Virus record (IMG/VR): IMGVR_UViG_3300044701_000569 | Span: 186,001-250,000 of that record | Origin: a virus | Length of the DNA stretch: 64,000 nucleotides | Reading direction: 5' to 3' (one strand) | Shown: piece by piece, positions 1 to 48,042 of the stretch | Layout of the letters: each line of letters opens with the position of its first letter | Position numbering within the stretch: the stretch's first letter is position 1 | Notes under the pieces: generated by a model | Databases searched by the model: none | Seen by the model: the letters and a program-made list of their open reading frames with translations, nothing else | What the model was told of the DNA's origin: nothing | Made by a program: the position numbers and the translations under genes

Positions 1-660
1 CAAGGTTATGCTGATAAGATTTTAATTAGATACAATTCTAACGGATTATTACTAGACGAAGAAACATTAGAGTTATGGAAAAATTTTAAGAAAGTAAAAT
101 TTGCTGTGAGTATTGATGATATTACTGACAGAAACTATTACATTAGATATCCGTCTGATTGGGATAGATTAGAAAAGAATATGCATATTCTTGATAATAC
201 GCCTAGCAACGTACAAGTAAGTATTGCTACAGCTATTCAAATCCTAAACATAAAAACTCTACCTGAATTAGCAAAGTGGAAAATTACACAGAATTTTAAA
301 AAGATAAATTTTGAAAATGTTTATGAAGGTATACAAGCCGGCGGCGGAATAGTAAACATGCACTTATTGTATATACCTACTTTTTTAAGTATACGATGCT
401 TGCCTAAAGAGGACAAGCAAGAAGTAAGAAAAATATTTGAAGATTTTAGATTATGGCTTCTAGAAAACTATACACAAGATTCAGACTTTTGGAATGTAAA
501 TCCGTATGGGTGGAAGCGTTGGCAGGCTGTTTTAGATTTTATGGACGGTGAAGATCATACACACGAACTACCGGCATTTAAAGAATACATACATAAACTA
601 GATTCTATTAGAAACACAGATTTTAAAACTATTTTTCCGTTATTGAGTCACTTAGTATGA
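1..660 (+). CDS. Radical SAM family protein, C-terminal part (5' end outside window)
   Basis: The reading frame is open from base 1, so this is the 3' part of a longer gene; the GTG at 106 is internal. The visible 219 residues start with a strand ending in an RYNSNG motif, followed by an acidic helix and a FAVSIDD strand. This pattern is typical of the later half of a radical SAM TIM barrel, but the CxxxCxxC motif would lie upstream of the window. The stop overlaps the next start (ATGA at 657-660), so the two radical SAM genes are probably translationally coupled. Substrate unknown. Confidence 0.75.
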   Translation, partial: QGYADKILIRYNSNGLLLDEETLELWKNFKKVKFAVSIDDITDRNYYIRYPSDWDRLEKNMHILDNTPSNVQVSIATAIQILNIKTLPELAKWKITQNFKKINFENVYEGIQAGGGIVNMHLLYIPTFLSIRCLPKEDKQEVRKIFEDFRLWLLENYTQDSDFWNVNPYGWKRWQAVLDFMDGEDHTHELPAFKEYIHKLDSIRNTDFKTIFPLLSHLV

Positions 661-1655
661 AACAACTAGCAAGAGTTATTACTACACAAGATCCTACTCT
701 TTTAGATGTGAGATTTTGGCCTACCGATATTTGTAACTTTAGTTGTAACTATTGTTTTCCTGGCAGTGTTCTTAACAAGTATCGTTATCCTAAAAATGTC
801 AACACTGTAATAAAGAATTTTAGAATACTGTTTGATGCATATATGAAACTGCATAACAAGAAAAAGTTTAAGATAAACATAGTAGGGGGAGGTGAACCTA
901 CATTATGGCCGCATCTCTCAGAGTTCTGTCAAGGCATTAAAGAAACACATCCAGTTGAAATACAATTGACTTCTAACGGCAGTAGAACTCTTAGATGGTG
1001 GGAAGAAAATAGTTTATATGTTGATAAAGTAGTATTAAGTTGTCATTACAAAGATGTTGACATTAATAATTTTATTCAAGTAGCTGATTATATTTTTGGA
1101 AGAGGTACAGACATAGGTGCTCTAATGCTTATGGATGCTACGGCTTGGGATACATGTGTTGAATTAATTGAACAAATGAGAAGCAGTAAACATCCTTGGA
1201 TTATACAAGCAAAAGAAGTTGTAGATGCTCCAGGATATGATATAAGAAACTATACAGCAGAACAGCTCAGTTATTTTAAACAACCTTTTAAACGTGTTCC
1301 GGATACTAATTGGATTATTAATAACATACATAGATTTAGAGTACACGAAAGTGTATCGCTTTATGATGATAATTCTGTAGAGCTAGCACTACCTAACTAT
1401 TACATAGTTAATAAATTAAATCAATGGAAGGGTTGGAATTGTAATGTGGCTCTTGAAAATCTAGTTATTACTTATGACGGTACAGTTACAGGTAGTTGTC
1501 AAGAACCTGTGTTTTCTAATTCTAATTTAAATATGTTTGCAGAAGATTTTGAAGAAAAATTTAGCGAAGAATCGCTAAGTTTAAAAACATTAATTTGTCC
1601 AAGAATGAATTGTAGCTGCCAACCAGATACGCACATTACAAAATGGAAGTCTTAG
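657..1655 (+). CDS. Radical SAM/SPASM-like protein
   Basis: 332 aa. A radical SAM CxxxCxxC motif (CNFSCNYC) is near residue 24, followed by a GGGEPT motif typical of SAM binding. The C-terminus has further cysteines (a CNV motif, SCQEP, CPRMNCSC), as expected for an auxiliary Fe-S (SPASM/twitch) domain. Such enzymes modify peptides, nucleosides or sugars by radical chemistry; the substrate cannot be read here. It is coupled to the preceding radical SAM gene and ends convergently with the minus-strand radical SAM gene (20 bp overlap). Confidence 0.85.
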   Translation: MKQLARVITTQDPTLLDVRFWPTDICNFSCNYCFPGSVLNKYRYPKNVNTVIKNFRILFDAYMKLHNKKKFKINIVGGGEPTLWPHLSEFCQGIKETHPVEIQLTSNGSRTLRWWEENSLYVDKVVLSCHYKDVDINNFIQVADYIFGRGTDIGALMLMDATAWDTCVELIEQMRSSKHPWIIQAKEVVDAPGYDIRNYTAEQLSYFKQPFKRVPDTNWIINNIHRFRVHESVSLYDDNSVELALPNYYIVNKLNQWKGWNCNVALENLVITYDGTVTGSCQEPVFSNSNLNMFAEDFEEKFSEESLSLKTLICPRMNCSCQPDTHITKWKS

Positions 1656-2526
1656 TCAGCGGAATGTCTGCTGCACAAGTACACCAATTTCTATCACAAA
1701 TTATTTCTGATGCTGGAATACGAAAATCTCCTTTATAGATATTTCCTAAACTACCGCCAACCCTGCAAGTAGCTCGGTGTACTTCACCATCCCAGTTAAT
1801 CATTAGACTTTCAATACCTGCACTGCATTTCCAATCTTTAAATTTATTCATATGCAGTTTTATTATATCATTAGCATGATATAGATCTTTGTTGTCAACT
1901 ATGCAATTTTCTTTTGCTGTTGCGTTGTTTTCTAATAGATATTTTAAGTCATTAGGTTGATATCTCATGTCGTCGAACCAATCGTGATCACCTTCGGTCC
2001 ACCGTATTCTTCTTAGTACAAATCCTATGTTGTGACCTGTAAACAGATCAACTGAATACCGCACTCTATCCATGTGTTGATGATGAGCCATAATATTAAC
2101 TTGAAACGGTATTTCACACAACTGAGAAAACAACAGTATAGTCATAGCACACCGTTCCCAATGTTCATTATCGTAGTGTAAACTAAACACATAATGACTT
2201 ACAGGTTGTTTAGCGTACCATTCAGGTGTTCTAGTAGCGTTAGTAGTTACATTGATCCAACTAGCATGTTCTTTAGCATACGCTAACAATTCTTCAATAT
2301 CCGGATGAACACACGGTTCACCACCAGTAAAGCTGATTCTAATTGGCTTATTAATTTCCGTTAATTTGTCTACAGTATTCTTTAAAATAGCTATATCTGT
2401 GTGCGGGCTTATGTTGTCATGAATTTCAGCAGGACAATATCCGCAATCAAAGTTACAACGTTTACCAAGATTCCACTCAATCTTTACAGACTCTTGATGA
2501 GGCCAACGACTAGTTATCTTATACAT
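1636..2526 (-). CDS. Radical SAM protein with C-terminal Cys-rich domain
   Basis: 296 aa. The core motif CNFDCGYC is near residue 24 and FTGGEP follows at about 65. The C-terminus carries a TCRVGG segment and CDRNWCTC, resembling the end of the plus-strand neighbour at 657-1655, so the two look like distant paralogues read convergently. Its start overlaps the end of the next upstream radical SAM gene by 8 bp. Enzymatic target unknown; oxygen-sensitive Fe-S chemistry is expected from the family. Confidence 0.85.
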   Translation of the reverse strand: MYKITSRWPHQESVKIEWNLGKRCNFDCGYCPAEIHDNISPHTDIAILKNTVDKLTEINKPIRISFTGGEPCVHPDIEELLAYAKEHASWINVTTNATRTPEWYAKQPVSHYVFSLHYDNEHWERCAMTILLFSQLCEIPFQVNIMAHHQHMDRVRYSVDLFTGHNIGFVLRRIRWTEGDHDWFDDMRYQPNDLKYLLENNATAKENCIVDNKDLYHANDIIKLHMNKFKDWKCSAGIESLMINWDGEVHRATCRVGGSLGNIYKGDFRIPASEIICDRNWCTCAADIPLTKTSIL

Positions 2527-3784
2527 AATTTATAAACTCTGGGTTGGTTGTAAGAAAGTTTTGATTTCTAGTTTTATCTAGTTGCCGATTAAATTCAACA
2601 CAGTCAGGCCAAAATCTACTTAAATCGTTAGCCTTAAGGAAATTAATATTATCTTGTATTTGTTGTAGTGTTACAGTTTTAAGAAGAGCATGTTTTTGCA
2701 CTAACGGATAGTCTAGTATTTTTGTTTTCATAACTTCTAACTTTTCTATTACTTGTTCTTTTAATACACTTGGCAATGTCTGAGCAGATAGTGCTCTAGG
2801 ATAGTTTACACGATGTGAATAAAACACAATACCCATTTCATTTATAAAGTAGTCTATAACTTTATCTATCTGCATTATGTTATTAGCCTGTACAGTAAAT
2901 GCTCCTACTACTCGGCTTACGTTAGGAAATGACTTAAACACTTTAACATTTTCTTCTATTTCGGAAAACTTACCATTACCTCTTATGTATTCATAAACAT
3001 CATGTATACCATCAATACTTACATTTACAGCTATTGATTTAAACTTCGGCCAATAATCATGTATAGTTCTTCCTCCCTTAATTCCTAAGGTCGTACCATT
3101 AGTAGCATATTTTAATTCAATATTAGAACCATAAGGTGCAAGCATATCTAATATTTTATAATGATAAGGATCCATTAGAGGTTCGCCGCCAGCAAATTCT
3201 ACCCTACGAAAGTACGGTAATAACTTTTCAAAACTATTCCACCAGTTATCGCTATTGTCAAAGGGTCCTATATACTGACCAGGTACATCAACTAATTTTT
3301 CAATAGTAGGTATAAGATAATTGTTTTCTTTTTTATAAAATTCTGTAACTTGGTCCCAATCTTTCCAACTAGTACTATCTAGAGGATTGCACATACGGCA
3401 TTTTAAATTGCAAAGATTGTTTAATTTAATTTCCATTGTAGGAAATTCAAAAGGCATTGAAAAATCTTCTAACAGATTTTCTAATGCATTGGGATAAAGA
3501 TTAATTCTAGCTTCTGGAATAACTCCATTAATGTGTCTTTGTCTTAAACTTTCAACGCCCTGATCTTCTAAATCAAAACAGGGTTTACATACTTCTGGTC
3601 TTTCATTATTTAGAACCTGTTGGCGAACTTTGCGCATTTCACTGTTGTTCCACGCTTCTTCTAAACTTTCTTTTTGAATCCACCCTATAGGTTGACTACG
3701 ACAACAGACTTTTATTGCTCCGTCTTCTCTAGTAGCAAGTCCTGTAAAAGGATGCATACAGAAGGTACATGATTTATTTTCCAA
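2519..3784 (-). CDS. Radical SAM protein with N-terminal SPASM/twitch-like cysteines
   Basis: About 421 aa from a TTG at 3784. I prefer that start because GGGAG lies just upstream and the recognisable protein (CTFCMHPFTG) begins directly after it; an ATG at 3850 would add 22 residues read through the upstream PP-loop gene. An N-terminal Cys cluster (CTFC, CC, CKPC) precedes the radical SAM motif CNLKCRMC and an AGGEPL motif. Putting the auxiliary cluster first is the arrangement of twitch-type radical SAM proteins annotated in marine phages. Overlaps the PP-loop gene by 11 bp. Substrate unknown. Confidence 0.82.
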   Translation of the reverse strand: MENKSCTFCMHPFTGLATREDGAIKVCCRSQPIGWIQKESLEEAWNNSEMRKVRQQVLNNERPEVCKPCFDLEDQGVESLRQRHINGVIPEARINLYPNALENLLEDFSMPFEFPTMEIKLNNLCNLKCRMCNPLDSTSWKDWDQVTEFYKKENNYLIPTIEKLVDVPGQYIGPFDNSDNWWNSFEKLLPYFRRVEFAGGEPLMDPYHYKILDMLAPYGSNIELKYATNGTTLGIKGGRTIHDYWPKFKSIAVNVSIDGIHDVYEYIRGNGKFSEIEENVKVFKSFPNVSRVVGAFTVQANNIMQIDKVIDYFINEMGIVFYSHRVNYPRALSAQTLPSVLKEQVIEKLEVMKTKILDYPLVQKHALLKTVTLQQIQDNINFLKANDLSRFWPDCVEFNRQLDKTRNQNFLTTNPEFINYV

Positions 3785-4517
3785 GAGCCCACTCCCTTTC
3801 TTTACACCAGAAACATTTTCCGCAAACAGGAACATACTGTCCTGAAACATAAGTTTTATAATCTAAGTCACCAAAAGTTTCAGGATAGTTTATTTTATCG
3901 CCTTCACAGCTTCTAGTCAAGTTTAATAAGTCTGTTATGTTATTTTTAAAATACTGATTTATTATCCAATTTTTTCTTGTATGAATAAAGGGATGACATA
4001 CAGTAACTCCCATGTGTTGTATAATAGGATCTATATGACCCTCATCTCTGTCGTCTAGAGATCCGTCAATTTCAATATCGGGGTTAAGATTAACAGCAGC
4101 AAACCAAGCATCTAGTTGTTCTCTATGAGCAATATATTCGTTATGAGCTCTAAGAATTATTTGATTACCAGATTTTAATTTTCCGTATTCGTCAACAATA
4201 TTAGGACCAGTAGATCCCCACTCTAGTTCTGGAGGTATAAAACCTTCGTGCCTAAAAAAACGATTTTTAAATCTATTTTGAAGCCAATTATACACATCTA
4301 AACTGTTTTGTCTTTGCCAGGGTCTTGTTTTCCAACAACGAATCTGTGTAATGATATGAATATCTGCACTAGTGTTCATACATATTAAATAAGCTAATAA
4401 GGCACTATCTGCCCCACCGCTTAAACTTATTCCTATCCGTGACCAATTAGGATCAATAGGCAAGATTACGTCGTCATATTTAACAGAAGGAATATTCATG
4501 CAAGTATTTATCGACAT
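3774..4517 (-). CDS. QueC-like PP-loop ATP pyrophosphatase
   Basis: 247 aa. An adenylating PP-loop (SLSGGADS) lies near residue 32, and the C-terminus has CGKCFWCKERE with another Cys upstream. The CxxCxxC zinc site resembles that of QueC (7-cyano-7-deazaguanine synthase), which makes preQ0 from CDG. With folE, queE, queD and dpdA elsewhere in the window it is the only QueC candidate, but it sits in the radical SAM island, is divergent, and could adenylate another substrate. A second possible start is the ATG at 4499, which shares a CATG with the plus-strand start of the next gene. Confidence 0.6.
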   Translation of the reverse strand: MSINTCMNIPSVKYDDVILPIDPNWSRIGISLSGGADSALLAYLICMNTSADIHIITQIRCWKTRPWQRQNSLDVYNWLQNRFKNRFFRHEGFIPPELEWGSTGPNIVDEYGKLKSGNQIILRAHNEYIAHREQLDAWFAAVNLNPDIEIDGSLDDRDEGHIDPIIQHMGVTVCHPFIHTRKNWIINQYFKNNITDLLNLTRSCEGDKINYPETFGDLDYKTYVSGQYVPVCGKCFWCKEREWALGK

Positions 4518-5217
4518 AAACTGCGCAGATAATAAATATATGATGCTAACTAAAACAGGTTATACAGTTCCAAAAGAATTAATGGATCGTACATCAATAG
4601 ATCCAAAATCAATTGATGAAAAATTTACCATTAACACTCCTACGGGTAATTTCTTTTATGATCCGTGGGAAATTAAACCAGAATTTAAAAATACGATATG
4701 GAATGAAATATTAGAAACACTACCATATCCTAAAGGTGAAGCTAGACTTTTAGTTTTAGATTCTGGAAAAAACTATTTTGGCCACGCAGACATTGATGAT
4801 AGGTGGCACTTAAATATCTGCGGAACTTATAGTTTTCTTGTAGATTTAGATACAAATATGCTGCACAAAACTGACAATGATATGACATGGTATTTAATGG
4901 ATGCTGGCAGATTACATTCTGCTGCTAATTTTGGAGATAAACCGCGAGTACAGTTAGTAGTTAGAAAACTTTTAAATCGTTCAACAAAGGATTTAGTATC
5001 AATTCAGATAACTCCTACAAAGAAAAGTTTTGACACTAGATACAGATTTGATCAAACACTAAGCCCGTGGCTCAATAGAGCATCTAAAAATGGAGATATT
5101 GATAATTTTCAAATTACTTCTAATGGTGTACAGCTTGATCTTGCTGTAGATAGGATTAATGAATTGTTAGAAGTTTGCGGAACTGAATTTTTAACTACCA
5201 TCTTGGGTACTTGTTAA
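4498..5217 (+). CDS. Aspartyl/asparaginyl hydroxylase-like 2OG-Fe(II) oxygenase
   Basis: 239 aa, starting at an ATG with AGAAGG 7 bases upstream. The middle of the protein shows the double-stranded beta-helix pattern of the Asp/Asn hydroxylase family: an ARLLVLDSGK strand, an HAD iron motif (HxD), a distal His in LHSAANFG, and an Arg in PRVQLVV for 2-oxoglutarate. These enzymes hydroxylate side chains using Fe(II), O2 and 2OG; the target is unknown. It is one of few plus-strand genes in the island and overlaps the GNAT-like gene convergently by 23 bp. Confidence 0.6.
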   Translation: MQVFIDINCADNKYMMLTKTGYTVPKELMDRTSIDPKSIDEKFTINTPTGNFFYDPWEIKPEFKNTIWNEILETLPYPKGEARLLVLDSGKNYFGHADIDDRWHLNICGTYSFLVDLDTNMLHKTDNDMTWYLMDAGRLHSAANFGDKPRVQLVVRKLLNRSTKDLVSIQITPTKKSFDTRYRFDQTLSPWLNRASKNGDIDNFQITSNGVQLDLAVDRINELLEVCGTEFLTTILGTC

Positions 5218-5746
5218 GCTCAGCATAAAACTTATCAGGAAATAACTCCCATACTGTTTGTTGAGTTCCTCGATAGAATATCTCTTTTATTTTTTTCATT
5301 TGTCCTGATTTTTCCATAGCAGGACCAAATATTCTATGCACTAGGCGTTGTGTGCCTGCAGAATTTTCGTTAGAAGTTATAAACAACTTACTACCTTTAG
5401 GAGCCCAGTCTATACAGGTAGGAATTAAAAACTGACTAGTAACATGCTGATGTGTAATTATTTGGTTAACTGTCCTAAGAGAGGTTACTGGAATTTCATC
5501 ACTGAATGCACAAGTCCTAGCAGCTATACGATAGCAGTTTTCTCCCATTTCGTCAAAAGAGTGTGCTGCAACACTGCCTACAGGTTTGTTATTATAGTAG
5601 AGTATCCATACCTGCCATTCTCTTTCTTTTTTAAAACAATCAACTAGTAGTTTTTGAGAAGCATTATTTTCAAAACCTTTGGCAGCAGCTTTTGTATAAA
5701 ATTCATCTAGATCTAAGTCTTTAGTCCAAGGAACTATTTTATACAT
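5195..5746 (-). CDS. GNAT-like acetyltransferase (tentative)
   Basis: 183 aa. The central strands (WILYYNNKPVGSVAAHSF, then an acidic turn and a CYRIAARTCAF strand) resemble beta strands of the GNAT fold, but no clear acetyl-CoA loop (Q/RxxGxG/A) is present, so acetyl transfer is only a suggestion. It overlaps the kinase-like gene upstream by 13 bp and belongs to the minus-strand run of the island. Confidence 0.4.
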   Translation of the reverse strand: MYKIVPWTKDLDLDEFYTKAAAKGFENNASQKLLVDCFKKEREWQVWILYYNNKPVGSVAAHSFDEMGENCYRIAARTCAFSDEIPVTSLRTVNQIITHQHVTSQFLIPTCIDWAPKGSKLFITSNENSAGTQRLVHRIFGPAMEKSGQMKKIKEIFYRGTQQTVWELFPDKFYAELNKYPRW

Positions 5747-6429
5747 TCGTTTACTCTACTAACAAAGTTGTCCGGGTAATTTGTTCTAAAACTCATCCAG
5801 CAAAGTTTTTCTAGCTGATTTAACGGCGCCGGAGCAGTCCAATTCATTCCTAAAGACTCTACTGTTTGTTTTAGATTGGCCTTTCTGTCTTCACTTAGAT
5901 GACTTTGATGTTTCTCTATACTTATAAATCCTTCATTGTGATGATAGGTAAAGAAATAATTAATACTTTTAAGTTTACCATCTACTATAAAGTAACTGCT
6001 AGGATGCATTGAATACTTGTATAAGTTTAGAGACTTATGGGCTTGAATAATTTCTAACATTTGTTCTTCCCAGTTTGGCAATACCTTAGAGTAATTTTCT
6101 GTAAGGCAACCTGCTTGCTCCCAAAAATCAGATCCGTCAATGTTTAAATAAATCTTTTTTTGAACATAGTCTATATCTAGTATTTGAGGAATATGCATTG
6201 GAAATGAATTGTTCATCACTGTTAAAAATTTAACTTCTCTTTCCCATTTTTCCTCCATAAGTTCAGGATCAATTACCTGATTTTGACCTTTATGGTAATC
6301 TGTGTCGTTATGATACCATTGTACAAATGTTTTCTTATCTTTACTGATAAGACTAGTATAAATTAAGTTGTTTCTACAAAGTCCTTTACCAGGAACATTG
6401 TTGTAGTAGTATTCAAATTCTGTGTTCAT
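5734..6429 (-). CDS. Kinase-fold-like protein, probably degenerate
   Basis: 231 aa. A segment around residues 130-160 (AHKSLNLYKYSMHP, then FIVDGKLKSINYFF) mirrors the layout of the catalytic loop and metal-binding strand of APH/protein kinase folds, but the usual HxD and DFG-type residues are not intact. The same pattern appears in 9748-10311, suggesting divergent paralogues. It may be a pseudokinase or a binding domain rather than an active enzyme. Nine bases separate it from the upstream gene. Confidence 0.35.
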   Translation of the reverse strand: MNTEFEYYYNNVPGKGLCRNNLIYTSLISKDKKTFVQWYHNDTDYHKGQNQVIDPELMEEKWEREVKFLTVMNNSFPMHIPQILDIDYVQKKIYLNIDGSDFWEQAGCLTENYSKVLPNWEEQMLEIIQAHKSLNLYKYSMHPSSYFIVDGKLKSINYFFTYHHNEGFISIEKHQSHLSEDRKANLKQTVESLGMNWTAPAPLNQLEKLCWMSFRTNYPDNFVSRVNECIK

Positions 6430-6437
6430 AATAGTAA

Positions 6438-7739
6438 TTATGCTACTAGATTATTAGAACGATTTAGATTGAAAGGCATTTCAAACCACACACTATTTGT
6501 AGAATCAAGTAGTCTTTGAATTTTTTCTCTAGTTGAAATAATTTCTTCTTTTGAATATATTACATGTGTAAATGGATACACAGTTAAAATTGTGCTTGTA
6601 CCTAATAGTGTATTTTCTTCAAAATGAGTTTCAAGTTTGCTAAAATCTTTTATAATATCACATTCGATAAATTCAACAGTAACAGACTGTTTAAATTCTT
6701 TCCAATTAGCAAGAATTTTTTCTCTAACAAGATCTCTAGTATCAACCGAATTTTTTATATCAATGTCAAACGTAGGTTCAATTGGTAAGTTACAAGTTTT
6801 AGCATAATCCTGCATGAACGAATCGTAGTCGTTGCCGTCCCATTCTGTGTATAGTTTTTTCTTAAAGTTTAAATTATGTAAGTTCTTATCATACAACACA
6901 ATATTTTTAGCTCCAGAATTTACTGCACACAGCTCTCCAAGAAAACCTGTAGCAGGACAAATTACTTTTTTTGCTGGCACTGACGGAGCAAATTCATATT
7001 GCCATCCGTTAAGGACATTAAATTTTAAAACCTGTTGTATTATTTTAATAAACAGTTCTTGAGAGTCGTCTAACCCTTCTACTAGTTCTATTTTTTTAAG
7101 TGCTTCTGCAAATGCTTCAGTACTCTTTTTTGGATACAGAAAACCTCTACTAGGTAGTACAACATCTTTTAAGTAATCATTAGCTGTTTTAGGATAGCGC
7201 CATTCTTGATCCCAATTACGTACCTCAAAATTATTTTTAAGACATTCTTCGATAACTCGTGTTCCAAATTTTAAATCTCTGTTTACAGTCTTTCCGCCTA
7301 ATGTTATGTACAGCGGAGCATGACCATCGTGCATGTCTTCGTAACTGCGAATTAAATTGAATCCTTGATCCTTGCCACCATTAAATTCTAATTTTTTAAA
7401 TGCAGCAGTTCTCAATATAAAAAATTGTTCGTGAAAGTACGGGGTAGTATCATAATCATATTGAAGTAAGTTTGCAATTAAACCTACAGTCTCTGGTATA
7501 GAATGCATCTTGTTATAGATGTGATCTCTTTCTACTATCACAGTACCTGCAGACGCTACTACAAGAAACTCTGCTGAAGTTAAATAATCGTTTATTTCAT
7601 TATAGGATGATAATGTGTGGACAGGATATTCGCCTATGTTGAGAATATCGATAAATGCTTGCGTAATCTGAAGCATCTTTTCATCCAACCAATCATCACT
7701 AGAAAAGCTCGGTACTATAAGAAAATTGACCTTGTGCAT
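6438..7739 (-). CDS. Two-domain protein: possible transferase plus nucleotide-binding domain
   Basis: 433 aa. The N-terminal half (to about 200) has a VVASAGTVIV strand and a later HAPLYITLGG segment, loosely like sugar transferases. From about residue 255 the pattern PATGFLGELCAVNSGAKNIV, then LYDKN, looks like the first strand-loop-helix of a Rossmann methyltransferase with an acidic strand-2 end. Both assignments rest on short patterns. It overlaps the 2OG oxygenase gene upstream by 41 bp. A role in modifying a glycan or surface protein is only an inference from context. Confidence 0.35.
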   Translation of the reverse strand: MHKVNFLIVPSFSSDDWLDEKMLQITQAFIDILNIGEYPVHTLSSYNEINDYLTSAEFLVVASAGTVIVERDHIYNKMHSIPETVGLIANLLQYDYDTTPYFHEQFFILRTAAFKKLEFNGGKDQGFNLIRSYEDMHDGHAPLYITLGGKTVNRDLKFGTRVIEECLKNNFEVRNWDQEWRYPKTANDYLKDVVLPSRGFLYPKKSTEAFAEALKKIELVEGLDDSQELFIKIIQQVLKFNVLNGWQYEFAPSVPAKKVICPATGFLGELCAVNSGAKNIVLYDKNLHNLNFKKKLYTEWDGNDYDSFMQDYAKTCNLPIEPTFDIDIKNSVDTRDLVREKILANWKEFKQSVTVEFIECDIIKDFSKLETHFEENTLLGTSTILTVYPFTHVIYSKEEIISTREKIQRLLDSTNSVWFEMPFNLNRSNNLVA

Positions 7740-8355
7740 TTTGTTCCTTTATTGCTAACTCAAATAAATTTTTCCATTTAGGCGTAGAATCATAATGATG
7801 TACTATAAGATGATATCGATCTTCGTTACTGTCATTTTTAATAGAATGGGTATAGCTAATGTTCATAGCATAAGCATCACCCGGTTTAAATTCTAACGAT
7901 TCTCCATCCTCCCAATACCATTTACAATTTTGAGGGTTTGTTATTGCTATGTTTATAGCACCTAGTACTGGATATTCTGTGTCTTTATGTGGTTCTATAT
8001 AACCACCTGGTTCTAGTAACATAAATCTAACCCTAGCATAACTAGAGCTAGGATAAACGTTCTTAAGCCATTCAACAGTTACTGGACATTTCTCAGCTAT
8101 GTCTGTATACTGCATATATGGTGCGGCATCTCTAGCTGTATTAAACTCTTTGTATTGATCCCATGCGTATGGTTCTTCGCTGCTCTTACCTATAATAGGT
8201 AATGAATACCATCCTTTTGTTTTATATGTTGATCTATATTCAACAAACTTAGATCTTAAAGCACTAGCTTCTTGTGCAATAAGTTCGTGAGGAAAATCTA
8301 AATTTAATTTTAGATATTTGGCATTACTTAAAAAATATTCTCTACCTTCAAACAT
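7699..8355 (-). CDS. Aspartyl/asparaginyl beta-hydroxylase-like 2OG oxygenase
   Basis: 218 aa. The core is well preserved: YARVRFMLLEPGGYIEPHKD gives the HxD iron motif, followed by a small-residue strand, a FKPGDAYAMN turn, the distal His in YTHSIKN and an Arg in EDRYHLIVH. This is the clearest Asp/Asn beta-hydroxylase-type enzyme in the island. The family hydroxylates aspartyl, asparaginyl or related residues using 2OG and O2. Substrate not visible. Divergent from the plus-strand gene at 8395 across a short AT-rich gap. Confidence 0.75.
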   Translation of the reverse strand: MFEGREYFLSNAKYLKLNLDFPHELIAQEASALRSKFVEYRSTYKTKGWYSLPIIGKSSEEPYAWDQYKEFNTARDAAPYMQYTDIAEKCPVTVEWLKNVYPSSSYARVRFMLLEPGGYIEPHKDTEYPVLGAINIAITNPQNCKWYWEDGESLEFKPGDAYAMNISYTHSIKNDSNEDRYHLIVHHYDSTPKWKNLFELAIKEQNAQGQFSYSTELF

Positions 8356-8394
8356 GAAATATTTACCTTTAAAATTGTAGGCATAAATATTTTC

Positions 8395-9210
8395 ATGATT
8401 AGAGGAATTAATAACAAACCGTACGTAAGTCTAGATCCTTATATTGACATAGAAGGATTTAAACAACTTCATCCTGAAATTTGCAAAGGCTTTGCACAAG
8501 CTAGAGACTATGCTAAAGAAGGAACTTGGATGCAGCCAGGATTTGACCCCAAAGACTGTAGCTATATTGTAGATTGGAAACCTATTTACAAAGCATTTGA
8601 AGAATATCAAAAATTGCCTGATACCGATCCTATTAAAATACATGGCAATGAAATATTTCCTAATGATTTTAAAGATTATAAACAGCGTAATTTGTTTACA
8701 CGTTACTTAAAAAGCACGTTAGGTGCTAATGACCCTTATATCTATTATTTTCTTTGGAATGAAGGCGACTGGAATGAGCGTAATGCTGAACGTCAACGTA
8801 CTGAAGAGAGTAAATTCTTTCCAGGTGTAGTTAAGTGGGTTGAAGGGTTACAGGAACAAGGTATAATTGATCGTATAGGTCGCGTTATATTTTTTCACTG
8901 TGATCATAACGGTAAAGCATTTGAACATAGAGATTTAGATGCTAAAAATGGTATACATACTAATAATCAGTATACACCTCATAACAATGAATTCATCCAT
9001 ATACGCTATAGAACTAAAAGAGGGTTCTATATATGGGATCCAGACAGTCAGAATAAACACTATCTAAATTGCCATGCATCTTTTTGGAATGATCAAGATT
9101 GGCATGGCGGCGAAGAGTCTAAAGAAGTTGAATACGGACTGCGTATTGATTGTAAATTTAGTTTAGATTTAAAGAAGAAGTTAGGTATTGATCACCTAAC
9201 TCACTATTAA
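8395..9210 (+). CDS. Putative 2OG oxygenase-like protein
   Basis: 271 aa. A RVIFFHCDHNG strand is followed by an FEHRDLD motif that could be the HxD iron site, and a distal His is available in the DQDWHGGE segment ahead of a YGLRIDCKF strand with an Arg. The order fits a double-stranded beta-helix oxygenase, but similarity is weaker than for the neighbours. It ends 4 bp into the convergent gene at 9207-9755, which is also oxygenase-like. Confidence 0.45.
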   Translation: MIRGINNKPYVSLDPYIDIEGFKQLHPEICKGFAQARDYAKEGTWMQPGFDPKDCSYIVDWKPIYKAFEEYQKLPDTDPIKIHGNEIFPNDFKDYKQRNLFTRYLKSTLGANDPYIYYFLWNEGDWNERNAERQRTEESKFFPGVVKWVEGLQEQGIIDRIGRVIFFHCDHNGKAFEHRDLDAKNGIHTNNQYTPHNNEFIHIRYRTKRGFYIWDPDSQNKHYLNCHASFWNDQDWHGGEESKEVEYGLRIDCKFSLDLKKKLGIDHLTHY

Positions 9211-9755
9211 CCCCAAATATTAAAAAGATACTTTGGAGTAAGTCCTGCGTTGGCCCCAGCATGCCAACTTTTCCTGTCAGGCCATTCATAGACATTACCT
9301 TGTGCTTCGTTGTAAAGACAGGTATTTTCTACTATTACAATGTGTCCGGGTCTTGGAATATCAATATGACAATGAAATCTTCTAATTGTACCTTTAGCAT
9401 TAAGAGTATTTTCATCATCAGTGATGTCCCAGTGCCAGGGAGCTACATCTCCCGGTAGTACTTTACTGATCCAGCAGTTTATATAACTGTCCATGCCAAT
9501 AAAGTCCATAAACTTTTCTACTACTTCTTGGGGAAATTGTCTTCCTGGGAAATGCATTTCCCAGCTAGCATTGCCGCCTTCTGCCTTCATTTTATATCCA
9601 GCATTCCTTAGCGGTCTAGCTACTTCTTCTACACCCTCTACTGCATAACCTACATCGTGTCTAGGTCCTAAGTAACCAGGCATACTATTATCAACTGCCT
9701 CTATTACTTCGTTCCAATTGATAATGTGATTGCAATTACCTATAAATTTAAGCAT
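9207..9755 (-). CDS. Putative 2OG-Fe(II) oxygenase or cupin-like protein
   Basis: 182 aa. ISKVLPGDVAPWHWDITDDE contains an HxD motif in the right strand context, followed by FHCHIDIPRPGH, then a KSWHAGANAG segment with the likely distal His. This matches the compact oxygenase/cupin layout of other island members. It overlaps the next upstream gene by 8 bp. Target unknown. Confidence 0.55.
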   Translation of the reverse strand: MLKFIGNCNHIINWNEVIEAVDNSMPGYLGPRHDVGYAVEGVEEVARPLRNAGYKMKAEGGNASWEMHFPGRQFPQEVVEKFMDFIGMDSYINCWISKVLPGDVAPWHWDITDDENTLNAKGTIRRFHCHIDIPRPGHIVIVENTCLYNEAQGNVYEWPDRKSWHAGANAGLTPKYLFNIWG

Positions 9756-10311
9756 TCAGCGAAATAGGCCAATCGCCAGCATTGCTGTCTATAGAACGTC
9801 TGTAACTTGTTACTATGTCTAGGTATCCGTCAGTAAATTTGAACCTATCCCAGTTTCTAATTACATCATTAACTGTAGTGAGAGGAATCTTTTCGTCGCC
9901 TTTGCAACAGCCATAGAGATCGTGGATCTTTAATTTGTTATCCTTAACATACACTGTATGCGGATAAAAATTTAGTTTATAAAGATTATTACTTTCTAGA
10001 TCCTGTAGTAAGGATTTTAATTGCTGTACCCAATCGCTAGGCATCTCTCTACCAAAAAACAGTAAATGGCTCAAACTACTGTCATACCATTTGAAAGTTA
10101 TTTTTCTGTTGCCTTCGTCAACTGATTCTATTTCAGGAGCGTAATCTTTGCCTGCAATTAAATCTAATCCGTATAATTCTCTGCGGAACCAAAATTCCTC
10201 AAAGAATGTCATAGAATATGAAGTACTGTTATACTCGGCTTTATAAACATCGTTAGGAGTGCCGGGATATCCGTCACTACTGTATTTGTAAAAATCTTTA
10301 AATGTTTCCAT
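9748..10311 (-). CDS. Kinase-fold-like small protein, paralogue of 5734-6429
   Basis: 187 aa. Residues about 110-135 (NNLYKLNFYPHTVYVKDNKL, then KIHDLYG) repeat the NLYK, P, V/IxD, KLK pattern of the protein at 5734-6429 and resemble the catalytic-loop/DFG region of kinase folds; here an HDLYG stands where a DFG would be. A strand-rich N-terminus with a FFEEFWFRREL helix could be the small lobe. Activity is doubtful. It is the first gene after the tail-fibre-like gene. Confidence 0.35.
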   Translation of the reverse strand: METFKDFYKYSSDGYPGTPNDVYKAEYNSTSYSMTFFEEFWFRRELYGLDLIAGKDYAPEIESVDEGNRKITFKWYDSSLSHLLFFGREMPSDWVQQLKSLLQDLESNNLYKLNFYPHTVYVKDNKLKIHDLYGCCKGDEKIPLTTVNDVIRNWDRFKFTDGYLDIVTSYRRSIDSNAGDWPISLNA

Positions 10312-10348: not shown

Positions 10349-12073
10349 TTAAGGCTCAACAGCCATTTGTCTCCAACCACCGCCTAGATAAACTACCATC
10401 TGCTGTTTAGCTGGAGCACCAATGCCTAATGGATCCCATCCGCTTACAGAGTCACCGTCAGCAATAGCTACCATACCGTTGACTGGTGTTGCTGGTGCAG
10501 CACTTAACACTGCTAGTTTGGCAAATCCGTTGATGTCAAGAGTTGCTTCTGCTTCATAACCTAGTGTGTGATTAATTGAAGTATAACCTCGAGAATCAAT
10601 ATTAACGCCTTTAGGATTTAAAGGATTACCGTCAGTAAATGTTAATAAAGAAATACTTCCAGGTACTTCTCCTTCGTCAACTACGGCATTAGGATCAACA
10701 CTGCGTAGAATGATGCTGGATAGCGTGTAACTTGCAGTGCCTTCACCGGTAAGTGATATGCCGTCGTAACCTAGTGCAGCATCAATCTTAATTGTATCAC
10801 CAACTTGAATTGCTGTAGGAGCACTAAGTGTTCCACGTGATGATCTAAATGTTTCGCCTGGGCCAAAGAACCCTTGAGTAATACCGTTAGTGATATTAAC
10901 AAAATCACCGTCTGGGCATAGTCTTATAATTTGAGTAGTTCTTGTTGGATCTGTATTTTGTATTCTAATTGGAATAGATGATTCGATAATACTGTTACTA
11001 AAAGACATCGTTGATGTTCTTAAGATCGAGTTTACACCATCAACTAGTACTGTAGAATCATCACCAAAGAATGATCCTTTAAATGCAGAAGCTTCAACTT
11101 CGCCGTCAAACACTGCACTACCATTAACATCTAGAGCAGCTCTAGCAAAAAACTCTAAAGGTTGATTAATAGCAGTAAATCCTCTAGAGTCTATTATTAG
11201 ACCTTTATATGCACTAGTATTGCTATCTGCAAATGTTAATAGCTGTATGCTACCTGGAATTTCTCCTGCAGCAACTGACACATTATAATCTACACTGTGT
11301 CTAATAGCACTTGAAAGTGTATATACAGGATCGCCCTCACCATCAACTGATACGCCGTCGTAGCCTAGAGCAACATCAATTTTAATTGCATCACCAACTG
11401 TAAGATTAGTTGGTGCAGCTAGTGTCCCTCGAGACGCTCTAAAACTTTCACCTGGTCCTAAAAATCCTTGGCTTATACCCGTTGTAATAGCAGAGAATCC
11501 ACCGTCAGGCGCTGTTCGTATAAAGTTTAGAGTTACTGCTGGGTTATCGTGTTTGAATACTAATGCTGCAGAAGTACTGTTAACAGTAAATCCGGAAATG
11601 TCTAATATACCTGTAGAAAGAGTTTTTGTAGTAGAATTTACTAAAACTGTACTATCTGTAGCTTCTACATCTCCAATGTGCGTGCCGTCTGTATCACCTG
11701 TAACGTTACCAATTACATTACCATTAAGCGTACCATAAAAGTTTGATGTTACTGAGTCAACAACAATTTGATCAGTTGCATTAGTAATATCAATGTGATA
11801 ATCACCACCAGGTGTAAAAGCACCTTCATCTGCTGCTACAAACGCTGTACCGTTAAATTTTAGTATTTGTCCTGTTAGCGCAGGAAGTGTAAGATCTACG
11901 TCTAACAGATCATTAAGAGATTGAGCTATGCCAGAGTTTACTACAATACCGCCAACAGTGCTACCGTCACCTACCCACAAACGTTTAGTATCTGTAGTAT
12001 AGACAAGCTCGCCTTCTGTGGGCGTAATTAGTAATCTTTGTGCATTAGTTCCGCGTCTGAGACGTAAGGCCAT
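10349..12073 (-). CDS. Tail-fibre-like structural protein with internal duplication
   Basis: 574 aa. The N-terminus (MALRLRRGTN, then TEGELVYTTDTKRLWVGDG) matches the small N-terminal domain seen in many phage fibre and tropism proteins. Low-complexity beta-rich text follows (NGNVIGNVTGDT), then two similar blocks of about 150 residues (170-320 and 367-518). The C-terminus ends in a GWDPLG, YLGGGWRQ segment typical of fibre tips. A late promoter lies 32 bp upstream. Likely role: virion surface, host recognition. Confidence 0.75.
   Translation of the reverse strand: MALRLRRGTNAQRLLITPTEGELVYTTDTKRLWVGDGSTVGGIVVNSGIAQSLNDLLDVDLTLPALTGQILKFNGTAFVAADEGAFTPGGDYHIDITNATDQIVVDSVTSNFYGTLNGNVIGNVTGDTDGTHIGDVEATDSTVLVNSTTKTLSTGILDISGFTVNSTSAALVFKHDNPAVTLNFIRTAPDGGFSAITTGISQGFLGPGESFRASRGTLAAPTNLTVGDAIKIDVALGYDGVSVDGEGDPVYTLSSAIRHSVDYNVSVAAGEIPGSIQLLTFADSNTSAYKGLIIDSRGFTAINQPLEFFARAALDVNGSAVFDGEVEASAFKGSFFGDDSTVLVDGVNSILRTSTMSFSNSIIESSIPIRIQNTDPTRTTQIIRLCPDGDFVNITNGITQGFFGPGETFRSSRGTLSAPTAIQVGDTIKIDAALGYDGISLTGEGTASYTLSSIILRSVDPNAVVDEGEVPGSISLLTFTDGNPLNPKGVNIDSRGYTSINHTLGYEAEATLDINGFAKLAVLSAAPATPVNGMVAIADGDSVSGWDPLGIGAPAKQQMVVYLGGGWRQMAVEP
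10520..10975 (-). repeat. Tail-fibre internal repeat, copy 2
   Basis: Codes for residues about 367-518. GITQGFFGPGETFRSSRGTL, GYDGISLTGEG, GEVPGSISLLTF and IDSRGYTSINH align one for one with copy 1. The copies are clearly diverged at the amino-acid level, so this is an old duplication rather than a recent DNA repeat. Confidence 0.7.
11114..11566 (-). repeat. Tail-fibre internal repeat, copy 1
   Basis: Codes for residues about 170-320 of the fibre-like protein. Marked by GISQGFLGPGESFRASRGTL, GYDGVSVDGEG, the GEIPGSIQLLTF strand and an IDSRGFTAINQ turn, all echoed in copy 2 about 198 residues later. Confidence 0.7.
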
Positions 12074-19081: not shown

Positions 19082-19954
19082 TTAGGTGCCCCACGCATTT
19101 CCGAATATGTCGACATGGAGACGGGGCGTATATCTCCATCCCCGCTCCATTGCGAGGTTTGCGACTCGCTTGGTGTTTTGCTGGTAAAGCCCATCTTTTC
19201 CACCAACTGGCATAACATAGACTGGACATTCGATACCAGCACTGCGATATTCTCTAACAGCCTTTTCAACTTCGTCCACGTCCACTTCATCAGCAACAAC
19301 AAACTTGAAGTAAATGTCACTGTTAGGTACGGTACTATAAGACAGAGCAATATCAGGTTTGATAGCATCATTCCAAGACTCCCCCGAAACAGAAAGCTTC
19401 GGTGAGCAGGACCAAGTAATTCTGAGTTTGCTCTGTTGACAGAGATAGTCTCTAAAATCAGGTCTGAGAGCTTGTGTAGTATTTGTTTCAAAAGTAACAT
19501 TTTTTAAATCTTTCATTCTAGGATGTTCAAACAATTCTTGATAAAACTTTTGCCATCCTAGCAAAGGTTCTCCGCCTGTGATAATAAAATGAATGTCCTG
19601 CCCATTGTCCATCGTCCACTTGCCCGTAGGAGTAAGACTCAACAAGTGATCTACAACTTCGTCTACAGTCTTATCCTGCATAAACTTTTTAAATTCAGGA
19701 TAGATGCTAGCATAGGTATCACAGCCTGTGCCTATGATAGGTAAGTCTTTAAACTCTACAATAGATTCAAGACGTCCACTGTCTAGTAGTTCTTTTACTT
19801 CCGGATTATACTTATCGTTAACAGTTCCTCTAGGTAAACCAAAGTTCATACAACGAAAGTTACAACCAAAAGTACGTAGGAACACACTAGGTACTCCTAC
19901 GTAACGACCTTCACCTTGAATAGAATAAAATGCTTCGCTATATCTTAATTTCAC
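19082..19954 (-). CDS. queE: 7-carboxy-7-deazaguanine synthase QueE
   Basis: 290 aa. The QueE opening FYSIQGEGRYVGVPSVFLRT and GCNFRC are present; the third cluster Cys comes after an insertion (IIGTGCDTYA), as in QueE variants with long spacing between the second and third cysteines. TGGEPLLGW follows. QueE turns CPH4 into CDG, the second-to-last step to preQ0. Lies in the folE/queE block; the start overlaps the next gene by 4 bp. Confidence 0.88.
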   Translation of the reverse strand: MKLRYSEAFYSIQGEGRYVGVPSVFLRTFGCNFRCMNFGLPRGTVNDKYNPEVKELLDSGRLESIVEFKDLPIIGTGCDTYASIYPEFKKFMQDKTVDEVVDHLLSLTPTGKWTMDNGQDIHFIITGGEPLLGWQKFYQELFEHPRMKDLKNVTFETNTTQALRPDFRDYLCQQSKLRITWSCSPKLSVSGESWNDAIKPDIALSYSTVPNSDIYFKFVVADEVDVDEVEKAVREYRSAGIECPVYVMPVGGKDGLYQQNTKRVANLAMERGWRYTPRLHVDIFGNAWGT

Positions 19955-20327: not shown

Positions 20328-21026
20328 TTATCGTGGTGCAAATTCTTGCTGTAGTTTAATGTTGTCAAAAAACTCTTTCTTAGTACCTGGGTCATCTTTA
20401 AATGCACCTTTGAGTACTGTAGTCTGAGTTAATGAACTATGTGCCATAATGCCACGATTCTCACAGCATCCGTGTGTGGCTTGAATATATACAGCTACAT
20501 TTTCTGAGTCGGTAACTCGCATGATTTCGCGGGCAATATCATTGCAGAGCTCTTCTTGAAGCGTCCCGCGCCTGGCACACCACTGTGCGATACGAGTGTA
20601 TTTGGAAAGCCCAATGAGTTTGTTGGCGGCAATAATCCCGATATATGCCACGCCACTAACGGGCTGATGATGATGACTACACATACTACGAAGCTCACTA
20701 CGGACAACCAGCATACCTTCGTAGCGGTCCTCCGAATCGTTGGGAAATGCTGTTGCGTCTGGTGCTGGGTCATATCTTCCTGCCATAATTTCATTCACGT
20801 ACATCTTAGCAAGACGCCTTGCGGTGCCTCGACTGTTAGGATCTGTATGTCTGTCAATAACTAGTGCGTCTAGCACACCTTCAAACTTTTCAGTAATTTC
20901 ATCAATTAACTGATCTCGTTCACTAGGAGCAAGCCATTGGCTAATGTTGTCACCAGCCCAAAAGCGACCGCCTTCATTCTTAATTCTATTTCTAATTACC
21001 TGTGATAGGTTCTTTTCTTGAGTCAT
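20328..21026 (-). CDS. folE: GTP cyclohydrolase I
   Basis: 232 aa. The catalytic core is intact: SMCSHHHQPVSG with the zinc Cys and His, an IGLSKYTRIAQWCARR segment and the second zinc Cys in ATHGCCENRG. FolE forms 7,8-dihydroneopterin triphosphate from GTP, the first step of the 7-deazaguanine (and folate) pathways. With queE, queD and dpdA here the 7-deazaguanine route is the likely purpose. A strong early promoter lies upstream. Confidence 0.93.
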   Translation of the reverse strand: MTQEKNLSQVIRNRIKNEGGRFWAGDNISQWLAPSERDQLIDEITEKFEGVLDALVIDRHTDPNSRGTARRLAKMYVNEIMAGRYDPAPDATAFPNDSEDRYEGMLVVRSELRSMCSHHHQPVSGVAYIGIIAANKLIGLSKYTRIAQWCARRGTLQEELCNDIAREIMRVTDSENVAVYIQATHGCCENRGIMAHSSLTQTTVLKGAFKDDPGTKKEFFDNIKLQQEFAPR

Positions 21027-26784: not shown

Positions 26785-26987
26785 AATGCTAATGCTCTTA
26801 ATTTAGTTTCGTAAAGGTTGATTTCGTCTTTGATCCAAAGTTTTTTAGTTTTAAGCATGTTAACTGTTGAGTCGGGAGCAAACTTATTATATAACAAGTT
26901 TATCTCGTCGTCAAGCTCTCTATGCTTTTTATAAAGTTCTTGTAGATGTGCCACAAGTTTATCGTGGTCTGTTTCAAAGTTGTTCAT
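26781..26987 (-). CDS. YdcH/DUF465-like small coiled-coil protein
   Basis: 68 aa from the ATG at 26987 (GGAG 5 bases upstream); the longer frame from 27032 only reads through the dpdA end. The sequence ELYKKHRELDDEINLLYNKF and later LKTKKLWIKDEINLYETKL matches the YdcH pattern of two short helices. Function of YdcH unknown. Confidence 0.6.
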   Translation of the reverse strand: MNNFETDHDKLVAHLQELYKKHRELDDEINLLYNKFAPDSTVNMLKTKKLWIKDEINLYETKLRALAL

Positions 26988-28533
26988 CCTCCAACTCCTC
27001 CAGTTTATGTTCTTGTTCTTCCGTAAACTCACCCGCTTCTAGTTCTTGCTCTGTCGTTTGCTCTACTTCAAACAGCGCATCGAAGTATGTACTAGAGTTC
27101 ACAGTTTTCTTTCCAATTGCACCGCGAGTACCGGGAATAGCAATCCAAAATTTTGAATACTTTTCAATTACTTCTAATGATTCTTCTCGAGTTGTCTTTG
27201 AAAATATTTCTTCTACAACATCTCTAAAGAACAGTCTATCAAACTTTTCTTGTACCAACATGTTTGGAACAACACCTGCATCATACTGTCTATTTGCTTC
27301 TTGCACAGCATTGATGTGACTCCATACATTATGACCCATCTGAATAGCATAACTAAAACTATCCCAACTGGTGCGCCCTTCCTTGCCAATCTTATTCAAA
27401 TCGCCTGGTTTATAAATGCATACATCAGATACTTTCATTTCTGATGTAATTGGACTGTCTTCAAAGTTCTTGAAGATACCGTCTTGCAATACTGCTTGTT
27501 TAAAAGTTCTAGTATCGGTTGCATACTTTTTATGGTCAATGCTTGGAACCATTCGATAGGTCCACTTGCCTCTATCAGGTGTTTCATTTTGAATGTAAAT
27601 CTGTCCATTAGCAGTTGCTAAGAACGGGCTAGCACAGTCAAACGTCAGCATCATAGTAGGATTATAATACTTGCGAATAGCACGTTGTAAGTCTGTAAGC
27701 AAACATGCCCACTCTAATTTACTAGTGCCCAAGAAATGCATTACATCATGTACACCGCTTTGTAACAAGCCGTCATAGTGCAGAGCAACAATACGTTTGA
27801 GTACTAAGTGTACATCACACATGTTCTGTCCACCCATACTCCACCCATTAAAGTGATTGTCAGGATAGATGTTAGGGTCGCAGTAATCTTTCATCTGCTG
27901 ATACCAATCTTCTGCATCAGTGTGATTTTCACCTTGCAGAACATTTAAGAACTTACATGCTCCTGTACGATGCTTTAACCAATAGTCATTATTAATGCGT
28001 GTTGCTTTAACGGCTTCTTGATAAGTGCTGATACCAGTAGCCTTTGCGCCTTCAGGTGAACGAGCAACCCAGGCTGGGATATCAAGTACCATGCCATAGT
28101 CCATATAAGCGTCCATCCAACGCAATACACCATCTCGTTTCTTTTGAGCCTTAGGGCAATTAGGATCTTTCCAATCACCTTCCCAAACACCCTTACCAAT
28201 CTGGAAGCCGCCTGAGTCACCCAGCAACCAAGTGTTCTGTCTATCTCTATTACGAACCATGTCTTCTTTAGGCACAATCTTAGTTGTATCTAAATCAGCA
28301 TGTCCTGCAGAGTAAAGCGTCCACTTGTATGTGAACGCTCCTTCTTGCGCATTAAGATAGTTTAGACTTTCAACTCCGTGTTGGAAGTTAGCAGGAATAC
28401 GAGCTGCCTCAATGTAAGGACCTTTAACAGGATCTGGATGACGCTGCTTGCCTACATAAGTTGCATAGAAGCCGCTTAGTGCTGGTAAGAAGTGTGCGTA
28501 ATCGTTTTGTGTCGCTGTTAAGTCTTTATTCAT
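26974..28533 (-). CDS. dpdA: DpdA-like DNA 7-deazaguanine transglycosylase
   Basis: 519 aa. TGT-fold hallmarks: DSGGFQ at residues 106-111 (general acid/base Asp), a GWSMGG segment near 230, and TFDCAS with the nucleophile Asp near residue 299. It is much longer than tRNA-guanine transglycosylase, as DpdA proteins are. DpdA exchanges guanine in DNA for preQ0 or a derivative, shielding phage DNA from host nucleases. folE, queE and queD nearby supply the precursor. Directly overlaps the clamp gene by 1 bp. Confidence 0.85.
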   Translation of the reverse strand: MNKDLTATQNDYAHFLPALSGFYATYVGKQRHPDPVKGPYIEAARIPANFQHGVESLNYLNAQEGAFTYKWTLYSAGHADLDTTKIVPKEDMVRNRDRQNTWLLGDSGGFQIGKGVWEGDWKDPNCPKAQKKRDGVLRWMDAYMDYGMVLDIPAWVARSPEGAKATGISTYQEAVKATRINNDYWLKHRTGACKFLNVLQGENHTDAEDWYQQMKDYCDPNIYPDNHFNGWSMGGQNMCDVHLVLKRIVALHYDGLLQSGVHDVMHFLGTSKLEWACLLTDLQRAIRKYYNPTMMLTFDCASPFLATANGQIYIQNETPDRGKWTYRMVPSIDHKKYATDTRTFKQAVLQDGIFKNFEDSPITSEMKVSDVCIYKPGDLNKIGKEGRTSWDSFSYAIQMGHNVWSHINAVQEANRQYDAGVVPNMLVQEKFDRLFFRDVVEEIFSKTTREESLEVIEKYSKFWIAIPGTRGAIGKKTVNSSTYFDALFEVEQTTEQELEAGEFTEEQEHKLEELEDEQL

Positions 28534-30025: not shown

Positions 30026-30026
30026 A

Positions 30027-45432: not shown

Positions 45433-45440
45433 GTATTTAG
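45433..45440 (-). promoter_or_regulatory. Late-like promoter, CTAAATAC
   Basis: Minus-strand CTAAATAC 28 bp before the holin-candidate ATG; a weaker match to the late octamer. Confidence 0.4.
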
Positions 45441-47646: not shown

Positions 47647-48042
47647 TTAGTTTTCCTTACAGGAACATTTTGTTTCGTAGTCGTGTATAGCTGCTTTAAT
47701 TGCATCTTCTGCAAGAATTGAGCAGTGTATTTTAACTGGCGGTAGAGCTAGTTCTTCTGCAATTTCTGAATTTTTAATTTCTTTAGCTTGTTGGAGTGTT
47801 CTTCCTTTGACCCACTCTGTGACAAGGCTCGAGCTCGCGATAGCCGATCCGCAGCCATACGTTTTAAATTTTGCATCTGTAATAATACCTGTATCATTAT
47901 CAACCTTTATTTGTAATTTCATTACATCGCCGCAAGCAGGTGCGCCAACCATACCAGTACCAATGGAAGCATCACTAGTAGAAAAACTACCCACGTTTCT
48001 GGGGTTTTCATAATGATCAAGAACTTTATCAGAATATGCCAT
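47647..48042 (-). CDS. iscU: Fe-S cluster scaffold IscU
   Basis: 131 aa, full IscU length. All three scaffold cysteines are present: PACGD (C37), YGCGSAIASSS (C64) and KIHCSILAEDA (C107). LPPVK (100-104) is the HscA-recognition motif. It builds [2Fe-2S] clusters for transfer. In a phage with radical SAM proteins and a ferredoxin it could supply clusters during infection. Host IscS would be needed. Confidence 0.92.
   Translation of the reverse strand: MAYSDKVLDHYENPRNVGSFSTSDASIGTGMVGAPACGDVMKLQIKVDNDTGIITDAKFKTYGCGSAIASSSLVTEWVKGRTLQQAKEIKNSEIAEELALPPVKIHCSILAEDAIKAAIHDYETKCSCKEN

Follow-up and report, generated by a model that had tools for sequence, protein, structure and literature searches.

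Variable islands that lie beside the baseplate and fibre genes, and that carry lipopolysaccharide-type glycosyltransferases together with cassettes of radical S-adenosylmethionine (rSAM) enzymes, have been described in pelagimyophages and cyanomyophages as the host recognition cluster (PMC7029224). Here we describe an enzyme-rich island in a T4-like jumbo phage known from the 357,559-base IMG/VR virus record IMGVR_UViG_3300044701_000569 (hereafter G000; a linear and possibly incomplete record), starting from a stretch of 64,000 nucleotides, G000:186001-250000, which we call the window. In the phages first described, that cluster is placed between VrlC and the neck gene gp14. Like the host recognition cluster, this is a sizeable variable island among the structural genes of a T4-like marine phage, adjoining baseplate and fibre genes and containing both glycosyltransferases and rSAM enzymes; unlike it, the island belongs to a jumbo phage and holds 13 rSAMs, a paired conserved core, a QueC-like ligase and five enzymes resembling 2-oxoglutarate (2OG) oxygenases. 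Furthermore, the host recognition cluster is non-syntenic, whereas the core of the island is conserved across hundreds of contigs. The evidence presented below supports the view that the island is a co-inherited modification system.

Individual components also have described counterparts. The family NF033640 (N_Twi_rSAM), of unassigned function, has seven members in the island, whose own feature is their tandem arrangement and their pairing with short rSAMs. Canonical QueC (PF06508) shares the PP-loop and the zinc motif with the island protein g05, in which the substrate motifs are missing. Cap9, the QueC-like protein deazaguanylase of type IV CBASS (cyclic oligonucleotide-based antiphage signalling system), is a second counterpart of g05. 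Motif signatures have been published for both canonical QueC and Cap9, and loss of the canonical QueC motifs YxQxHxxE, VPxRN and YPDC predicts loss of the synthesis of 7-cyano-7-deazaguanine, preQ0 (PMC13329287).

Extent, radical SAM content and co-inheritance of the island

A sequence-only reading of the window had located the feature at positions 1 to 10,311. When the DNA before the window was fetched, an almost gapless gene block was found to begin about 23 kb earlier, so that these positions represent only the last third of an island extending from approximately 162,857 to 196,311 of G000 (window coordinates about -23,100 to 10,311). The island spans about 33 kb, comprises about 35 chemistry genes, and is set between tail-fibre genes: on its upstream side are the T4-like baseplate genes gp53, gp5, gp25 and gp6, a protein of 5,131 aa and tail-fibre genes, the neighbouring fibre proteins being encoded at G000 155284-162763; on its downstream side is the fibre gene g14, which the sequence-only reading had correctly taken as the border, followed by VWA/MoxR and replication genes. 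All the open reading frames (ORFs) listed in that reading exist; g09 is an island ORF that it did not name. In a second phage (G001) the left-hand gene order is the same, and the island abuts homologues of the virion gene 161771. In most of the records that have both gp6 and the rSAMs, the two are a few tens of kb apart.

A search of the whole G000 record with PF04055 returned 13 rSAM genes, all of them within 22.6 kb (167,205-189,850); simple arithmetic gives a probability of about 5e-14 for such a clustering by random placement. These enzymes consist of seven N-terminal-twitch rSAMs (about 400-470 aa, 299-397 bits on NF033640, for which the curated cut-off is 170 bits), five short rSAMs of about 300-330 aa, of which four bear a Cys cluster region at the C-terminus, and one protein that resembles BlsE and MoaA. 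Four of them, one partial, had been recognised from the window alone: g02, g03 and g04 score above the PF04055 cut-off, and g01 belongs to a gene that starts before the window, of which it is the 3' part. In the alignment of the twitch enzymes (A1) C31, C49, C106, C109, C163, C167 and C170, which include the catalytic CxxxCxxC and the N-terminal auxiliary-cluster cysteines, are invariant, and the catalytic motif is intact in 965 of 987 rSAM ORFs. The arrangement of the two main types is also far from random: across 149 non-identical loci there are 176 cases of a twitch rSAM with a short rSAM after it on the same strand, versus 40 in shuffles (4.4x), while the opposite order is depleted (16 versus 41). 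Fifteen further long records contain 10-22 rSAMs apiece. As a separate observation, in the short rSAM 173014 (L084:7014-8012) the Cys region that is C-terminal in its relatives is N-terminal, an apparent circular permutation; and in G002, the 328-kb record of locus L241, 22 rSAM genes are dispersed over the record rather than gathered in one island, and no IscU was found.

Relatives of the island proteins are encoded in many viral contig stretches (308 for g04, 272 for g05, 196 for g11, and at least 573 for the twitch rSAMs), with identities of 76-83% in the 80 best viral relatives of g04. Co-occurrence was counted in the best 80 loci for each seed, which are partly redundant, as some contigs are present twice. 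At g05 loci, g04 was found in 79/80, g03 in 78/80, and g01 and g06 in 74/80 each; at g11 loci, g08 was found in 78/80 and g07 in 64/80. Since many contigs end within the island, these counts are lower bounds. The core has the same order in dozens of contigs, and the median ratio of nonsynonymous to synonymous substitution rates (dN/dS) is 0.06-0.15 across ten tested genes (0.075 for g04, 0.11 for g03), as expected under purifying selection. Homologues scattered without co-occurrence, or belonging to known unrelated pathways, are what the sequence-only reading had asked to be looked for as evidence against it; neither was seen, because the core co-occurs, the rSAMs pair and the genes have low dN/dS. 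Its proposal of a previously undescribed modification system is borne out as regards co-inheritance (the g05-locus counts and the 4.4x pairing), while the location is of an already known kind (PMC7029224).

No classical precursor peptide had been noticed in the window, and a gap search agrees: only one gap longer than 60 nt is present in about 34 kb, none in the island exceeds 93 nt, and gaps longer than 120 nt occur in 3 of 80 core regions. The precursor peptide gene that marks an rSAM cluster for ribosomally synthesised and post-translationally modified peptides is therefore not found here. By hydropathy, none of the island proteins has a membrane segment.

Among approximately 50,700 records of isolate phages there is no match to g05, g08, g11, g12 or 180199, and the twitch rSAMs have only matches of 22-25%, in Vibrio phages and one marine single-cell virus; the literature on rSAM enzymes in jumbo phages yielded no such island. 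The best bacterial relatives are in metagenome-assembled genomes of Bdellovibrionota (for example JAUHWH010000001 and JABSOQ010000008), in which clusters of twitch, short and BlsE-like rSAMs are accompanied by g05-like (E about 1e-22), 180199-like, 184643-like and SGNH genes. They differ from the island in being chromosomal, as argued from a nearby seryl-tRNA-synthetase-like ORF, read from sequence, on one contig, and in what appear to be HTTM-like membrane proteins and possibly a B12-type rSAM (L087, L088, L096 and L097). The island chemistry is thus not restricted to virions. A defence system was considered and rejected: PADLOC gave nothing beyond generic similarity to viperin-like rSAMs and a partial match to QueC (E 0.002).

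Table 1. Genes of the island inside the window, with its fibre-gene border and three genes outside it (window coordinates).
Feature	Position	Strand	Assignment	Support
g01	1..660	+	3' part of 470-aa N-terminal-twitch rSAM; whole gene G000 185248-186660	NF033640 397 bits
g02	657..1655	+	short rSAM	PF04055 E 7.8e-9
g03	1636..2526	-	short rSAM, final gene of g05-g04-g03 operon	PF04055 E 3.7e-11
g04	2519..3850	-	N-terminal-twitch rSAM; best-conserved island protein	NF033640 326 bits
g05	3774..4517	-	QueC-superfamily PP-loop protein	PHROG 1550 E 7.5e-6
g06	4498..5217	+	beta-hydroxylase-type 2OG oxygenase	profile match 7v4f E 9e-15; invariant HxD...H...R
g07	5195..5746	-	GNAT-like, weak	PF00583 E 0.13
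g08	5734..6429	-	kinase fold without HRD Asp	protein-kinase profile match E 2.7e-6
g09	6438..7739	-	433 aa; rare among relatives	no family match
g10	7699..8355	-	aspartyl/asparaginyl beta-hydroxylase-like 2OG oxygenase	PF05118 E 1.6e-14
g11	8395..9210	+	271 aa; probable 2OG oxygenase	invariant HRD...H (alignment A5)
g12	9207..9755	-	probable 2OG oxygenase	invariant HWD...H (alignment A9)
g13	9748..10311	-	kinase fold, g08 paralogue	blastp E 1.6e-4 to g08; kinase profile match
g14	10349..12073	-	fibre protein; right border	Mtd_N domain PF18454 E 8.6e-10
QueE-like 7-carboxy-7-deazaguanine synthase	19082..19954	-	outside island, possible supplier	phrog_2076 E 1.8e-53
FolE, GTP cyclohydrolase I	20328..21026	-	outside island, possible supplier	PF01227 E 1.3e-40
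IscU-type Fe-S scaffold	47647..48042	-	outside island, possible cluster supplier	PF01592 E 2.1e-55

The QueC-like protein g05, its possible substrate and the other enzymes

The assignment of g05 as a QueC-like ATPase, already made from the window alone, is upheld by its relatives, with SGGxDS and CE...CxxCxxC present in 264/264 and PF(x)4K in 258/264. The canonical motifs YxQxHxxE, VPxRN and YPDC were each found in 0/264; because these published signature motifs (PMC13329287) are missing, g05 is not a canonical QueC. On PF06508 it reaches 10 bits versus a gathering score of 22 (one orthologue reaches 24.8 together with neighbours). With Cap9, g05 shares SGGxDS, PF(x)4K and CE...CxxCxxC, the CE-to-C spacing being longer in g05, but the Cap9 motifs Y/FxQ(x)5E and YxDC are present in only 8/264 and 0/264 relatives, respectively. 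The AlphaFold (AF2) model of g05 has a mean confidence (pLDDT) of 87.5, and the nearest solved fold is that of Cap9 with deazaguanylated CdnD (9nto, E 4e-6, TM score 0.52), a modest likeness with other PP-loop enzymes close behind. As for the partners of Cap9, no CD-NTase (cGAS/DncV-like nucleotidyltransferase) was recognised among the island proteins, the part of the record covered by that search, and the tRNA-guanine transglycosylase (TGT) family of Cap10, PF01702, has no match in the record. With the latter result, tRNA, one of the targets contemplated by the sequence-only reading, finds no support. No island family begins with a conserved Met-Gly, which would have hinted at a deazaguanylation acceptor.

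Each of the four long records that were tested has genes for FolE, for a QueD-type protein (in G000 at 269893-270234) and for a QueE-like protein and, g05 aside, none for a canonical QueC; 7-carboxy-7-deazaguanine is thus plausibly available to the phage. The QueE-like protein is itself an rSAM with a split Cys motif, outside the island. The same deazaguanine supply may also serve DNA modification. A TGT/DpdA-like protein with a DSGGFQ motif is present at window positions 26974-28533; it is 32% identical to a hypothetical protein of the jumbo phage PA5oct, and has no family-library match. Both PA5oct and the jumbo phage 2.275.O carry QueE and a TGT-motif protein. The IscU-type scaffold occurs in G000 and in 5/17 other records, among them the three other long core-bearing records, and fits a heavy demand for Fe-S clusters; in G001 an IscU-type gene, two IscA-type genes and one resembling a tryptophan halogenase are grouped just past the island (282581-283670). 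A fatty acid desaturase (window 45437-46141, PF00487 E 6e-14) is also encoded by the phage.

Probable 2OG oxygenases number five (g06, g10, g11, g12 and 182915 of G000). Family-level support is confined to g10, with 54.5 bits on PF05118 versus a cut-off of 22.6, and to g06, through a profile match (it is not listed by Pfam); g11, g12 and 182915 are assigned by an HxD...H motif, invariant in the first two, and searches of PDB profiles with g11, g12 and 184643 gave no credible match. Thus two of the four oxygenase-like proteins counted in the sequence-only reading have family support. The two proteins that it called kinase-like, g08 and g13, are mutually homologous and have a protein-kinase fold by profile, but the catalytic HRD Asp is absent from their alignment; its GNAT-like protein g07 gives a weak match. 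The island also holds two SGNH-like proteins and the methyltransferase-like 184643. Protein 180199 is predicted, from its model, to have a glycosyltransferase (GT) GT-A fold, 166285 being its paralogue, and 176494 and 183453, which share a C-terminal segment, are read from sequence as glycosyltransferase-like.

What the island may modify

We tentatively favour, at somewhat less than even confidence, the reading that the island is a soluble cytoplasmic decoration system of an undescribed sort for a surface-exposed product, likeliest the neighbouring fibre and tail proteins. The island would then be an enlarged, enzyme-rich host-recognition region encoding a multi-step pathway, whose enzyme activities, step order and substrate we infer. 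Pairs of rSAMs, N-terminal-twitch then short, would carry out C-H chemistry, and the beta-hydroxylase-type 2OG oxygenases would hydroxylate side chains; g05 would use ATP to activate a carboxylate, plausibly 7-carboxy-7-deazaguanine of the phage's own making, which would be joined to an amine; and the GT-A-fold, methyltransferase, SGNH and kinase-fold proteins would complete the decoration. The substrate would most likely be a protein, foremost the fibre and tail proteins from either flank of the island. If these are decorated, the virion surface would vary beyond the amino-acid code. In favour of this reading are the clustering, pairing and co-occurrence of the rSAMs, the position between virion genes, the lack of room for a precursor and of membrane segments, the beta-hydroxylase likeness of g06, the nearest solved fold of g05 (a protein-nucleobase ligase), the GT-A fold of 180199, and the phage-encoded Fe-S scaffold and 7-carboxy-7-deazaguanine enzymes.

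Several observations weigh against this interpretation. Proximity to the fibres is a circumstantial pointer to the substrate, and in two records, G016 and G017, the main block with most of the rSAMs is 110-140 kb away from gp6. The related clusters on Bdellovibrionota chromosomes occur without a virion, so a virion protein is not required as the substrate. The rSAM/SPASM similarity extends to the sugar and cofactor enzymes BlsE, BtrN and MoaA. Finally, IscU is absent from 12/18 records, including the 328-kb record with 22 rSAMs, though most of the others are short.

According to one alternative, the island remodels the envelope glycan (O-antigen or capsule) of the infected host and thereby excludes competing phages, by means of glycosyltransferases, methylation, SGNH proteins engaged in acyl transfer or hydrolysis, and sugar chemistry by rSAMs, all acting on nucleotide sugars. 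Envelope-glycan remodelling is the published reading of the pelagimyophage host recognition cluster (PMC7029224), and would be in keeping with the predicted GT-A fold of 180199, the BlsE-like rSAM, and a nucleotide-sugar cassette at window positions 29273-31902 (an epimerase and UDP-glucose-dehydrogenase-like, phosphomannomutase-like and cytidylyltransferase genes). We regard it as unlikely, if not strongly so: membrane proteins are absent from the island, conservation is highest in the rSAMs and the PP-loop protein rather than in the glycosyltransferases, and beta-hydroxylase-like enzymes suit amino acids better.

It is doubtful that the product of the island is a small diffusible molecule (a modified amino acid, a nucleoside or a precursor-less peptide) serving as a toxin, signal or virion cargo. 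The presence of a PP-loop ligase beside rSAM and 2OG enzymes, the lack of a precursor gene, the similarity to BlsE and BtrN, and the related chromosomal clusters in predatory Bdellovibrionota agree with such a product, but no nonribosomal peptide synthetase, transporter or export gene was seen, and the location is fixed at the fibres.

Quite improbable, in our estimation, is a more specific version of the protein-decoration reading, in which g05 represents a third type of conjugase derived from QueC and couples 7-carboxy-7-deazaguanine made by the phage to a protein or other amine, the conjugate then being reworked by the paired rSAMs; the result would be a nucleobase-derived decoration of fibres or surface conjugates, with a related chromosomal system in predatory Bdellovibrionota. 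Least probable of all is that g05 is the QueC of a phage 7-deazaguanine DNA modification (with FolE, QueD, the QueE-like and the DpdA-like protein) and that the remaining genes are loose hypervariable cargo: while the other pathway genes are present and no other QueC was found, the absence of the three canonical motifs predicts no preQ0 synthesis (PMC13329287), g05 remains in a shared operon with g04 and g03, bacteria have rSAM-linked homologues of it, the DNA-modification route evidently works without g05, as no isolate phage matches it though PA5oct-type phages carry QueE and a TGT-like protein, and the co-occurrence and rSAM pairing are far from loose.

With 13 clustered viral rSAMs and a core order kept in hundreds of uncultured contigs, the island would rank with the densest radical-enzyme loci known; for the island genes tested, matches in the isolate phage records are at best distant. 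The association of a QueC-superfamily ligase with rSAM pairs, in phages as well as in predatory bacteria, offers a concrete, testable chemistry. If its products are on the fibres, phage host recognition gains a chemical layer beyond sequence.

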